Shown here in pieces: positions 1 to 30,842 of a stretch of DNA of 64,000 nucleotides. Position numbers and translations under genes: made by a program. Source of the stretch: Periplaneta americana (taxonomy: Eukaryota > Arthropoda > Insecta > Blattodea > Blattidae); assembly GCF_040183065.1 (NCBI RefSeq), contig NC_091122.1, positions 152,487,955-152,551,954 of the forward strand, written 5' to 3'. The notes beneath the pieces were generated by a model that saw only the letters and a list, made by a program, of their open reading frames with translations, made no database searches and was not told the DNA's origin. Within the stretch, counting starts at the first letter, position 1; each line of letters starts with the position of its first letter.

Positions 1-1962
1 AGAAAACATACCGCTCGTGTATCGTACATTATTTTGTGCGAAGATCGTTTATTACATACCTGAAAGAGGAATTTCTAATTAGTTGCAATGAAATCTCTAT
101 CTTGGTTTCTGTTCAATGACGGCAAATGTGCAAAACAAAAATATCTATCTTCAACATTGTTGCTTTAAAATGTTTTCTGTGTTTGCTATACTCCAGCAGG
201 CCGTGATATACGCCTGTCTTTTTTTTCTCTAGTCTATAAATGCGAACTTAAAACAAACGTTAAGGTTTTGTAATGATTTATTTTTAATTTTAATATTTTA
301 ACAATATTATTTATATAACATATTGCAGTAATAACATCGGCAAGTTTGTTGATTTTTTCACGGCTTCCTTAATGTTACTTGCATCACGAATGCAGTAACT
401 TTAGTGGAGTTGTAGAGTTTACTTAATTTTTGCAAATATTTAAAAACAATAATTAACAGTGCAATTTAGGTGAAATTGCAGTGGTAAGTTTCAAATTTAT
501 AATTATTACTATATTGAACGTCTCTAAAAATAATATGTTAAAAGCCTAAAGCAGTAAAATCAATATGTCACTTAAGCGGTAAGAAGAGGGAAATTGTTAT
601 GTGTGTTAGGTTGGGAATACTGAATGTGGAATTTTAGACTTACCGCGGATTTGTTTTTTGCGGAAACCAAACAAATACGCACGATCTCGCACAAAAGATA
701 TTTTTCACGTAATGCTAGTATTTGTTGCAAATGTCAACTTCTTATTGTTAATCATGAGGAATTCCTAATTAATTATAGCCGGTAGTATAATTATGCATGA
801 CGTAATAGAGCAGGAAAAGCCGTAGAGTCATTAGTATATTGCATGCGTAGCGAAGCGAGGTGCTTGTTGACATCAATATTACAGGCCGACGCAAATGATG
901 ATGCGTTTAATGGATGGTAGATTAATAATCTAGAAGATTAATAGGAGAAGCATAGCCACTTAGGCTGCACTGCCCTTGGGTTACTTCCCTGTCGGTCGCG
1001 CTGGCTTCCCTTCGCCCTGGTTTAATTCGTATTGCGTACAACACTTCCAATAAACTCTTCAATCTCTCAAATTACGTCGCTTTCAGAATTCTAGTTTCGG
1101 TTTCATTCATATTTCGTTTCATTCAATTTTTCTTTGTTGAGTATTTTACCTTTGTGCGAGATCGTGCGTATTTGCTTGTTTTCCGCACAGAACCAATACG
1201 CGGTAAGTGTGAAATACCACATTCAGTATTCCCAAAGTAACACACATAACACTTTCCCTCTTTTTACCGCTTAAGCGCGACATTCATTTTACTGCTTTAG
1301 GCTTTTAACATATTATTTTTAGAGACGTTTAACATAGTAATAATTATAAATTGGAAACTTACCACTGCAATTTCACCTAAATTGCAATGTTAATTATTGT
1401 TTCTAGATATTTACAAAAATTAAGTAAACTCTACAACTCCACTAAAGATACTGCATTCGTGATGCAAGTAACATTAAGGAAGCCGTGAAAAAATCAACAA
1501 GATTCCAGATGCCGATGTTATTATTGCAATATGTTATACAAATAATATTGTTAAAATATTAAAATGAAAAATAAATCATTACATAACATTACCATTTGTT
1601 TTAGTTCGCATTTATAGACTGGGGGAAAAAAAAGACAGACGTATATCACGGCCTGCTGGAGTATAGTAAACACAGAAAACATTTTACAGCAACAATATTG
1701 AAGAAAGATATTTTGGTGTTCCGAAGTTGGCGTCATTAAACAGAAACCAACATGAAGATTTTATTGCAACTAATTAGAAATTCGTCTTTCAAGTATGTAA
1801 TAAACGATCTTCGCACAAAATAATGTACGATACACGAGCGGTATGTTTGTTTTCATGTTCTCGGAAATTAAAAAAGCTCAACTACGTTTCGCTTTTTCAA
1901 TCTTTTCCTCGAAAATGAAAACGTCAACATACCGCTCTTGTAACGTATATTAATATTTTTTG
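1..1962. mobile_element. Foldback element with 0.7-kb inverted arms
   Basis: The left arm (1-697) is the reverse complement of the right arm (1151-1850): the right arm opens TTTGTGCGAGATCGTGCGTA and closes with CACGAGCGGTATGTTT. The right arm carries a further tail to 1962 that folds back on itself: 1832-1864 pairs with 1908-1945, around an AT-rich loop that itself contains AAAAAAGC facing GCTTTTT. The left end runs off the window. The spacer 698-1150 is unique here and has no ORF. No coding capacity is visible. A third copy of one arm lies at 57992-58690. I infer a non-autonomous foldback-type DNA element; the superfamily is unknown. Confidence 0.8.
698..1150. other. Spacer between foldback arms, no gene seen
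   Basis: This stretch separates the two inverted arms. It has somewhat higher GC near 960-1020 but no open frame of note, no recognised repeat and no RNA gene that I can support. Confidence 0.5.
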
Positions 1963-2289
1963 TTTTGTGTTACTATCTGTAGTAATATAACGAGAGGTCT
2001 GTGATTTATCTGGGAAATCTCAGACCTCGAGTGACATTTATTAGGACTATTTCGTGAATAAAATAAAAATGTAAATAATATATCCCTAAAATTCGATCAC
2101 AAAATATTAATAATTGTATATTAACGAATACTTAAACCTATTCAGACATCGTGAAGTTGAAATACTCGTAGATGAATATCGATTACTGCAATAAAGAAAT
2201 TCGATGTTATTGTTCAATAATGCCAATTGCGAAACGCGAAATACAGATTCAACAACGTTAATTGCATGTACTGCACTTTTCTTTTATTA
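1963..2289. other. AT-rich intergenic sequence, nothing recognised
   Basis: It lies between the foldback element and the Helitron-like element. I see no ORF, RNA gene or repeat. Confidence 0.5.
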
Positions 2290-3570: not shown

Positions 3571-3988
3571 ATGGATGCATGTAATAAAAATTAAGAAACA
3601 TGTTAAAGGAATTGTCATTGCACCAAATGAGTTGTCTCTGGACCAAAATGATCGCATTTTAATTATTTAAATCCAGTTTAAATTAAGTAACATATTAAAC
3701 GATTTATCCTTCTATTAAACACGAATGTTCCCTGGATCAAATGTCCTATTTTAATTGAATCGGTCATTGCAGAAAGGGGATAAGTCATAAAATCTTACTT
3801 TTGAGATAATCAATAAAAACTGTTTTCCTCTTCCAATACTGGAGCAATCCTCATAAATATTTTTTCTTACCTTGTTTATGAGTAGTGAAGTATAATACAT
3901 CATGTTAGACATCTGACATCTCATACACTTTTGTTTAAAGTTGTTTAATCGAACCATGACTTATCCCCTTTCTGCAAGGAATTGTTAA

Positions 3989-3989
<1 letters not shown>

Positions 3990-4022
<33 letters not shown>
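3990..4022. repeat. (AT)n microsatellite
   Basis: A run of alternating AT lies inside the DUF7869 element, just after an inward-facing copy of its terminal motif. Confidence 0.9.
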
Positions 4023-4026
<4 letters not shown>

Positions 4027-4355
4027 ACAATTTTGGGCTAATGTAATATTTGAAAACAAACTAAATGTTAATAATTACAATGATAACGATGTTTTTGTGT
4101 GTAATTACTACATTACTGTCACCATTTACATAATTATTTTTGCATTTTAATCATTATTCTTACTACAGGAATGTACCAATATGTGGTTTTGTATCACAGT
4201 TTTAACTCAAAACTCTACTTTTAAACTAATACTTAAAAACTGCATATAGGAGAGCACAATAAAAATACTCTAAAGTACTACACAAAATCATTTGTTTCAA
4301 TTGTTATAGAGTGTATTGTTAGACGTTGGAAGCCATGTCATTTGTAGATTCCTTG

Positions 4356-5364
4356 TCACAAGGTGGCCAGTTCAGGATCTCTTCGTAAAAGGAAGTGTGT
4401 TCCAATGGAATGTATTGCCTCACTTTCGATACGTCTCCAAGTTTTTTTCTTATTAATGGGAATTTTCCCATTGTATGCTTTTGTGTAAGCATTAATATGC
4501 GTCCAGAACCGGGTTTTTTTCATACAGAATCTGTGTTTCCTCATTTCACTACCAATGAACAAACTGACAGTCACACATCCTGTATCATCTTTAGAGTAAA
4601 CAAATTCACTGAATCGTGCTGAAGAAAACATGTTCTTATCTTTCCCTTTCTTCCTCAGTGTGTCTAATGAGCAGGTGGTTTTCTTGTAATGCTCTGGCCA
4701 CCAGTATTTAAAATTCAAAATATCATCAGTAGTAACTGATTCTGCAGAAAATCTGTTGTTTGTGTTTGCCTGGTGGATCAAGGTATTGTATTGGTCTGCC
4801 TCATTTACCCTGTCTGTCTTCCTTAGTTTGCGCTTCACTACACCAAAGTTACGGTCACAGGGACGAAATGAATGGCATCTTTGTGGAAAATAATGCATTA
4901 TTTTGTTAAATCTCCCCATTTGGATCAGTGCAAGCAACAATCGAATTAAGGTATGATTTTTATTTTTCCCTCCACAGTTATCAGAGAAAAGATACAATTC
5001 CTTGACTGAAGAAGGGACATTATTTTCAATGTAGTTCAGAAGGAACACACTTCATTTGAAGATTTGTGGCCTATACCTTCATGATAGGAATAGAAGTGCG
5101 CCGTATAGTCTTTGAAATTGTGAATGTTGAAAATTGATGACCCAAAGTTGCGTCTAAACAAACAATGAGTAGTTTCTTATCCACATTGTTCTCCAGTCGT
5201 ACGGGCTGCTACAGCCTTCCCAATAGAAATGACGTTCCAATGCCTTCAGTTAATTTTTCTTATTTACATTTCTGCGGTAGTTAATTTCATTGCGTTTACG
5301 TTTACCACTAATAACACAGTTTTCTTCCCTTGGGTCACTTACTACTTCTAGCTTATCTGTCATT
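4356..5364 (-). pseudogene. DUF7869-type protein gene, frameshifted and internally deleted
   Basis: The frame may begin at the ATG at 5362-5364. It gives an N-terminal basic stretch with KRKR (possible nuclear signal) and, after a frame break, the phrase AARTTGEQCG. A gap follows, then FNIHNF, HFYSYHEG and SNEVCSF, one more frameshift near 5048, and an open 230-codon frame to 4356. That frame holds LYLFSDNCGGKNKN at about residues 19-32 and HSFRPCDRNFG at about 60-70. Conserved Asp in the SDNCGG block and an RNase H-like layout would fit a nuclease or transposase, but that function is inference. DUF7869 is an uncharacterised family known mainly from arthropod and other metazoan proteins. The gene cannot make a full product as written. 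Confidence 0.75.
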
Positions 5365-5692
5365 TTCCTTATCAGCTGATGGGCGCGTAACTCATTAGAT
5401 CCGCTGCACTCAGTTGCGTCACGTCGTCAGTGCAGGAAGAAGGTAAGTCGCTGACTTGTCTCCTTTCTGCAATGACTGCGCTGCTTATGGTACTCTGTTT
5501 TGCGTTGAGAATGAGCAAATTTGTCCCATTTCTGTATGGAAATGTGTGTCTAGGTCTGGAGAAAACAATGGCACTCTTAACTCATTTTCGCGTTTTTCAT
5601 GACTTATCCCCTTTCTGCAATGACCGATTCAATTATGTAATTACTTTATATTCATTTCTAACGGGTGTAGCGGAGCGCACGGGTACGGCTAG

Positions 5693-28554: not shown

Positions 28555-29251
28555 TATACTAATAATAAATCTGTAGCCAAAATTTTTCTGGTCATCTTCG
28601 ATTTTCCAAAAATAATTGGTGTTAACATGTATAATTAACTATCCTGAAACCGAAAATCGCCTTTTTGAAATGTTTGTTTGTATGTCTGTCTGTCTGGATG
28701 TTTGTTACCTTTTCACGCGATAATGGCTGAACCGATTTATATGAAAATTGAAATATAAATTAAATTCGTTGTAACTTAGATTTTACGCTATATGGCATTC
28801 AAAATACTTTATTTAAAAAGGGAGTTATAAGGAGGCTTGAATTAAATAAATCGAAATATCTCCCTTATTATTAATTTTCATGAAAAATGTTATATAACAA
28901 AAGTTTTTTTAAAGGTGATTTCCGATAAGTTTTATTATATACAAAATTTTGATGGGACAAAATTGCACCAAAACGGATGTTCTCTGAACCAAATGATCAT
29001 ATTTTAATTATTTCCATGCAATAACAATTACGAAATATGTTACAGGAATTATCATTGCACTAAATGAGTGGTCTCTGGACCAAAATGATTACATTTTAAT
29101 TATTTAAATACAATTTAAATTAAGTGACATATTAAACGATTTATCCTTCTATCAAACACGAATGTTCCCTGGAGCAGACGTCCTATTTTAATTATGTAAT
29201 TACTTTATATTTATTTCTAACAAGTGCAGCGGAGCGCACGGGTACAGTTAG
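28555..29251 (+). mobile_element. Helitron-like element, copy 3, internally deleted
   Basis: The head (ATACTAATAATAAATCTGTA) runs to about 28957. It joins directly to the tail seen in copy 1, ending CGCACGGGTACAGTTAG (29251); the terminal CTAG of copy 1 is TTAG here. Its tail carries the uninterrupted target TTTTAATTATGTAATT at 29187-29202, which is the empty site for the DUF7869 element of copy 1. Confidence 0.75.
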
Positions 29252-30842
29252 TTTATAATAAATATAGAGAAATAATTTTACGTTTTATTCAATTTGAATA
29301 TTTTCTTTTTTAATATTTTGTAGTTCAATAATATTAGAAACCCGGGTTTGGCTTAATACAATCTTGGGCAAAAATATGAGTTACGATATTATTTTTTACA
29401 CCTAATTGGCTTTACATTTTTGTTCAATGAGAGGGCATGAAATCCTGTATCTTCTTGTATTATAGACATGATCGTCCGATATACTCCTAAAATGATTTCA
29501 ATGTTTATGGAAGTAATTTAGTAAGATGTTATGTATGATTTTGTTTGGTGTTCAATACATCAAATTGTCTATTTATGAGCTGTGTTGGACAATCGAAGAA
29601 TTTCAAACATATTTTAATGTTTTTCTTTTTTTAAGTAGTAATGGGAGAAGTAAAGATTATTTAATCCCATCCCATCCTATTATTCCATATTGTACTCGTA
29701 TAAGTGACTGAACTAAAGGTAGCTTATTGTCTGTGATTTAACTGGCATGAATTGTCGTTACTGTACAAATGACACAACTTATATAGGTAACAAAAATCTG
29801 CTATGTCTATGTTTGGATTCTTCATATTTAAAAATACATTACCATATTTTTACCATTTATGAACTTATTTTCTAAAATTTGTCTCAAAATTTGTGATCCC
29901 AAACATGTGTAGACTTTCAAACAGAGAAATACTTTTCAGTATATAAGTTTAACACTATGAAGAATAAGGAGAGCACGAATAAATAATTATGTGCAAAAGA
30001 TAGTAACAGAGAATTGAATAACAATGGTTCTTAAATGGCCCTCAAGCTCCCCTGATCTCAATTTTTTCGATGCTGTAATAATGTTGTCTCTGTATTGGAT
30101 AATCTTATACGATATCACAGTACATTTAATTCTTTTTTTTTTTTTTTTTTTTTGTCACTACGCCCTATAGGTATTGGTTTGGAGTCCTTAATTTGACTAA
30201 GATGTTTCTTGTAAACCATAATCATTTCCTGTGTTACTTCAATCCAGGATGTTTTCATTGGTCCAGCTGTTCTCAGTATATCAATCCATTATTCAGCTGT
30301 TTATACTGTGTCGTGGTTCTAGGTATTGGTTTAGGGTCTTTGACCGGAAACACACAGCGCTCCAAGCGATAAAATAAAGAAGCATGTAGTTGTGTGCTTT
30401 TGCAATACATGCGCGCTTCATTGCTGATAGGTGTGCAGCAACAAGCATAGGTTCCGACTTTTGTTTTATTGTTATATACTATTTCTAAAGTCATACAAAG
30501 CAAGGATTTCTGATGTGAAATTTGTATTGTTTTGGATCTCATTTGGTGTATATTGAGTATATTGAATATCGTACAGTCAGTGAAAACTTGTGCAATTGAC
30601 AAAGTCAAATAATGCATATAAAATAAACAATACAGACATAAAAAACAGTAAAATTGTATCAAAAAACACTCAATAACATTAACATTAAAAAATTCATTAC
30701 TATAAAAGGGTTTGTTGATCAACCAACCAGAGACAAGTCAGTTAAAGACTTTCTTTCCAGATTGAAAACAGATGTCGGAAATTTATGTGCAGTTTTTAAA
30801 GACATAATACAATAAATATTCATTGTTTTGGTTAGCCTACAG
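29252..30842. other. 1.6 kb with no clear gene
   Basis: At 30025-30080 the plus strand gives LKWPSSSPDLNFFDAVIM, which resembles the WP.RSPDLNP.DF block of a mariner-type transposase; only about 20 codons remain. A T26 run lies at 30128-30153. The 149-codon minus-strand frame at 30273-30722 has no features I know. Confidence 0.45.

Follow-up and report, generated by a model that had tools for sequence, protein, structure and literature searches.

A Periplaneta americana transposon with a probable DUF7869 transposase and Sola-like traits

The closest described systems are transposons of the Sola superfamily, to which the pertinent part of one source (PMC10741241) ascribes a DDD transposase, a 4-bp target site duplication (TSD), a length of mostly 2-9 kb, terminal inverted repeats (TIRs) of 11-1124 bp and occurrence in bacteria and metazoans. 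The Sola2 passages of a second source (PMC3627910) give 4-bp AWWT TSDs for dictyostelids, and a third (PMC7822920) describes, in the part concerned, Sola2 plus derived miniature elements in a wasp. The element considered here lies in a 64,000-nucleotide stretch of the cockroach Periplaneta americana (contig NC_091122.1, positions 152,487,955 to 152,551,954; hereafter the window). It occupies 3757-5630 of the window (1,874 bp), is bounded by TIRs and holds the remains of a DUF7869-type gene. The element is very probably a transposon whose DUF7869 protein, in full-length relatives, acts as a DDD transposase. What the sequence shows directly is its TIRs and TSDs, the matching empty site, a deletion common to many copies, the structure of the gene and its conserved residues; the fold and the active site are predicted.

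The window copy

The initial annotation had placed a broken DUF7869-type gene inside a perfect 32-bp TIR and a 4-bp AATT duplication, and had pointed to a related site with a single AATT. All three features of the insertion were recovered, as follows.

3753..3756, no strand: left TSD, AATT (sequence)
3757..3788, + strand: left TIR, 32 bp, GAATCGGTCATTGCAGAAAGGGGATAAGTCAT (sequence)
3955..3980, + strand: TIR core repeated in subterminal position, in the orientation opposite to the left TIR (families D1, I2; repeat comparison)
4307..5165, - strand: remnant of exon 2, residues 330-616 of the database protein P0001 in shifted frames, DUF7869 core included (protein alignment)
5165..5180, - strand: approximate position of the junction left by the shared internal deletion, corresponding to bp 487-1645 of the full-length element L011 (intron and first half of exon 2, including D315)
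5180..5363, - strand: remnant of exon 1, P0001 residues 1-62 in two frames (protein alignment)
5450..5475, + strand: another subterminal TIR-core copy, 81% identical to the reference copy, near the gene-start end (repeat comparison)
5599..5630, - strand: right TIR, complementary to the left TIR without mismatch
5631..5634, no strand: right TSD, AATT (sequence)
29015..29258, + strand: related empty site, the flanking repeat without the insertion and with a single AATT at 29190-29193 (alignment)

The left and right TIRs match perfectly over 32 bp, and the 20-mer at the element end is present at two places in the window, where shuffled sequence would give 0.01 (up to 3 mismatches). Joined with one AATT, the element flanks align to the empty site at 90% identity over 244 bp, ungapped at the junction. 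The subterminal TIR-core copy at 3955..3980 may be a second transposase-binding site.

An open reading frame (ORF) at 4356-5051 on the minus strand (231 aa) matches PF25273, the DUF7869 family (E 3e-10, 40.5 bits). Residues 63 to about 329 of P0001, D315 among them, are missing, and the gene also contains frameshifts. It is therefore broken, as the initial annotation stated, with the refinement that most of the loss is due to one internal deletion common to the subfamily. Because the predicted catalytic D315 is deleted, the window copy is unable to encode a transposase; judged by its sequence, it is a non-autonomous deletion derivative.

Copies in the cockroach genome

The genome assembly (3.23 Gb, 91 contigs) was searched for further copies, as the initial annotation had suggested. 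The exact 20-mer end has 625 matches (306 + 319), 524 of them preceded by AATT (258 + 266), and the reversed control has none. One hundred listed ends of the 625 were sorted into 42 pairs and 15 ends without a partner, with one further end next to L011; together with the window copy, 43 paired copies were available.

An exact 4-bp duplication flanks 39 of the 43 paired copies, and none has a duplication of 5 bp or more. The expectation of a constant AATT held for the length of the TSD but not fully for its sequence: four copies carry other identical direct pairs, namely ATTT (L022), AACT (L026), AAAT (L030) and ATAT (L042). No exact duplication was present at L011, which abuts another copy, or at L012, L013 and L014. 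Among the 15 unpaired ends, ten could be matched, within the 5 kb fetched, to a second end that differs by 1-2 mismatches; eight of these ten show AATT on both sides. The exact TSDs fit AWWT in 38 of 39 cases (the exception is AACT), and across these 39 sites, read on both strands, a palindromic preference extends beyond AATT, with A at -7 and AT at -4/-3 from the centre, plus the complements.

AATT could also be regarded as part of the terminal repeat, the true TSD being different, for example 2 bp. It is its own reverse complement, it adjoins the great majority of ends, and random re-pairing of the copies gives frequent agreement as well (mean 31.2 of 43, maximum 35, over 1,000 shuffles). 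This agreement is high because AATT dominates, hence the four non-AATT pairs are the telling cases. As matching direct repeats they identify AATT as the target and not the terminus; the limit of 4 bp in every pair and the one AATT kept at the empty site argue the same way. A terminal AATT is scarcely credible.

Full-length copies are ~3.05 kb long and code for a ~617-aa DUF7869 protein. L009, L010 and L011 are 97.9-98.8% identical to each other, and L054 and L056 are full-length as well. Both exons are uninterrupted in one of these five (L011), and the splice inferred from its sequence agrees with the 616-aa protein P0001. P0001 and P0002, the best two protein matches (96-97% identity), are both from P. 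americana, and the L011 protein scores 45.6 bits against PF25273. In a protein search of the genome (78 scored of 13,228 candidates), exon-2 residues 1-555 were matched at 96% identity or more in 12 rows, five of them without a stop. The close likeness of the full-length copies, some with open frames, makes recent activity of the element plausible.

The segment at approximately bp 487-1645 of L011 (3,054 bp) is absent from 37 of the 43 elements; three are full-length and three were classed as other, one of which, L042, was put there by a fixed tolerance yet has nearly the same deletion as the 37. The deletion also occurs at 9 of the 15 unpaired loci. Its identity across 37 elements is most simply explained by one ancestral deletion that then multiplied. 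The 32 members of 1.5-2.0 kb differ from their own consensus by 2.7% on average (1.7-3.9%; window copy 2.9%), and this consensus is 92-94% identical to L011. L024 is a 231-bp miniature copy. The tie between DUF7869 and mobility, first drawn from the window alone, is upheld by the deletion and full-length forms of one element among the 43 pairs and by TIRs around DUF7869 genes elsewhere.

One of the non-autonomous copies, L012, appears to contain a nested insertion at about 1002-2017 (minus strand), with ORFs that by eye look like a mariner/Tc1-type transposase.

More diverged insertions were picked from protein-search rows at 40-53% identity, and four were examined. The full signature of GAATC...GATTC ends plus AATT is present in two of them. 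L087 (50%, no stop) has the ends GAATCATGACTTGTTAAAAGG, a length of 2,811 bp and AATT on both sides; its inverted-repeat score is 30, and 40 shuffles of the flanks reached 15 at most. Its end 21-mer is found 14 times genome-wide, and all 12 ends outside L087 adjoin AATT. L089 (45%, with stops), 2,664 bp long, has the ends GAATCGTTGAGTTGG.../...CTCACCGATTC, is flanked by AATT at either end and has an inverted-repeat score of 29 (at most 13 in shuffles).

L083-L086 were counted as one insertion because they are copies of one larger repeat, flanks included. Compared over about 5.6 kb (3.6 kb in L085), this repeat is 98.6-99.2% identical counting its flanks, and a DUF7869 element was amplified inside it.

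The DUF7869 protein and its bacterial relatives

The structure prediction proposed in the initial annotation was carried out for the full-length protein. The model, compared by Foldseek, predicts an RNase H transposase/integrase core fold, and the solved structures among its closest structural matches are Mos1 mariner, the Metnase transposase domain and retroviral integrases. The candidate catalytic triad (D315, D392, D434; hence DDD) is conserved and follows the standard order in an RNase H fold. D392 is placed by the model directly after the fourth core strand, in agreement with the RNase H-like reading first given to the motif SDNCGG. In seven insect and four bacterial rows the invariant positions are D315, E358, D392, D434, a Q-N-x-N motif and a G-H motif; D434 is kept in all 11, whereas D436 is replaced by Y in the four bacterial rows. 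In integrases the third acid is E, where the DUF7869 protein has D. There are also conserved Cys pairs and, by eye, a helix-turn-helix-like upstream segment.

The PF25273 gathering cut-off of 26 bits is passed by all eight insect proteins (members of alignment A1) and all four bacterial proteins tested, and PF25273 is the only Pfam/NCBIfam family above its cut-off in them. A weak sub-threshold match to DDE_Tnp_ISAZ013 was detected in L068 (E 0.018), and sub-threshold NCBIfam hits carried unrelated names only. At E 1 or better, the eight insect members matched neither rve nor piggyBac nor any other transposase family of Pfam. A sequence-profile search of PDB uncovered no relationship (best E 0.35, ribosomal protein L23), and a Foldseek search of BFVD returned nothing at E 0.001 or better.

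Relatives were found at 11 bacterial loci in a scan of one bacterial or archaeal genome per species. The loci belong to the isolate Desulfocicer vacuolatum DSM 3385, to Thiomargarita nelsonii (two loci) and to Desulfobacterales, other proteobacterial, verrucomicrobial and nitrospiral records, several of which are metagenome-assembled genomes. Four of the bacterial ORFs (628-659 aa) were tested and contain DUF7869 (E 1.7e-15 to 5.3e-23, 57.5-82 bits), at only 20-24% identity to the cockroach protein. At least one scored match per genome was present in five of five bacterial genomes. Long TIRs surround the relative at 7 of the 11 loci and delimit elements of 2.04-2.72 kb, with the ends set at the G run. 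Three of these seven have exact 4-bp duplications (AAAT, ATTT, AATT) and 13 of the 14 flanking 4-mers fit AWWT, compared with 5% in the sequence nearby; with boundaries set by hand, these counts are supportive and not proof.

Two protein searches at E 0.001 gave at least 496 and at least 551 clusters. In viral_contigs, alignments A1 and A3 produced 11 and 63 pattern matches, none of which was confirmed, and the D. vacuolatum protein had no match in the plasmid and phage collections. Many of the listed DUF7869 protein matches come from contigs of about 2-3 kb, as expected if repeats break assemblies. At L072 2632-3162, the 2.1-kb Desulfocicer DUF7869 element apparently interrupts an IS3-like transposase ORF (by eye).

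The initial annotation had allowed DUF7869 to be either transposase or cargo. If it were cargo, or a host gene caught by an unrelated TIR transposon, the window copy taken alone, with TIRs around a broken gene, would be expected to look just as it does. The full-length copies speak for the transposase: they contain no other gene, their remaining ORFs of 100 aa or more being antisense to the DUF7869 ORF or crossing the element end. The predicted fold with its conserved DDD, and the position between TIRs in two of the four further cockroach insertions and at the seven bacterial loci, point in the same direction. The cargo explanation is highly unlikely.

Several observations do not fit so simple an account. 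At L088 (51%) the left end is degenerate and a right end is not recognisable. L083-L086 (about 42%) have inverted repeats at three of four loci and a clear TSD at none. A general absence of TIRs or TSDs from other copies, which would have contradicted the initial annotation, was not what the search showed, apart from such diverged insertions. Lower down, the Foldseek list includes MutS, NurA and Argonaute-type proteins, through their RNase H folds. Finally, the right end of L011 abuts a second copy (2,247 bp identical) with only AT between them, and this second copy runs into N.

These two copies, a full-length element and the one behind it, lie head to tail at L066 2580-7881 (C2:159162579-159167880). 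A circular or joined intermediate might explain the 2-bp junction of such a tandem, as might faulty assembly next to a gap.

Mechanism and placement among known transposons

In the proposed mechanism, the DUF7869 protein of full-length relatives would act as an RNase H-fold DDD nuclease/strand transferase through D315, D392 and D434. It would bind the 32-bp TIRs, perhaps the subterminal TIR-core copies too, and probably cleave at the G of GAATC. The 3' ends would then be joined with a 4-bp stagger to a palindromic AT-rich target, AATT being preferred and AWWT allowed, and repair of the staggered junctions would leave the 4-bp duplication. Movement is presumed to be cut-and-paste rather than copying. 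A single ancestral deletion would have deprived the window copy and its ~1.85-kb kin of D315 before they multiplied; since D315 was lost, they would have been moved in trans.

Ginger, piggyBac and Kolobok share with this element the TIRs and a duplication of about 4 bp (4-6 bp in Ginger, TTAA in piggyBac and Kolobok). Integrases are among the best structural matches, and the GA...TC ends are compatible with the 5'-RR and YY-3' of Kolobok. Against these assignments, Ginger has TG...CA termini and a Gypsy-integrase-like protein, and no rve match was obtained, the TTAA target of piggyBac and Kolobok differs from AATT/AWWT, and the Pfam scan of the eight insect members was equally silent on piggyBac and other transposase families. 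Membership in any of the three is very improbable.

Tc1/mariner was rejected, since its 2-bp TA TSD does not agree with 4-bp duplications in 39 of 43 copies.

The superfamily is likely Sola, probably Sola2, a putative assignment based on published traits. The 'little-described superfamily' of the initial annotation is thus probably not new. The same transposon could instead lie outside Sola, DUF7869 defining its own superfamily of insects and bacteria with AWWT targets. This would suit the absence of papers on DUF7869 or PF25273 from the library searched, which likewise had none on a Sola2-type transposase, and the isolation of PF25273 in Pfam and NCBIfam. The alternative is unlikely, as TSD length, AWWT, DDD and bacterial presence are all as published for Sola/Sola2. 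Rather doubtful, too, is the fuller proposal of a separate superfamily with the same 4-bp AWWT target in bacteria and insects, whose members now pass as 'uncharacterized' insect proteins or as unnamed insertion-sequence-like elements of bacteria.

A domain of unknown function present in uncharacterized proteins of several insect orders and in bacteria can now be tested as a transposase whose active site is predicted and whose ends and target are defined. Uncharacterized DUF7869 'genes' could be relabelled as transposons. With bacterial and insect elements sharing a target preference, a prokaryotic root of a eukaryotic transposon superfamily is directly testable.

In comparison with known systems, no sequence relationship was detected to Mos1 mariner, Metnase or retroviral integrases, and the mariner target, TA in the relevant part of PMC10741241, is unlike AATT. 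For PF25273, in Pfam a domain of unknown function, a role is proposed here, together with the boundaries of the element and a predicted active site. Dictyostelid Sola2, as far as the cited passages describe it, differs in its TIRs (12-21 bp, against 32 bp) and, in one family, in its protein (888 aa, against ~617 aa). By the traits that those sources list, the element resembles Sola/Sola2 in its 4-bp AT-rich TSD fitting AWWT, DDD, TIRs, size of 2-9 kb and occurrence in bacteria and animals.
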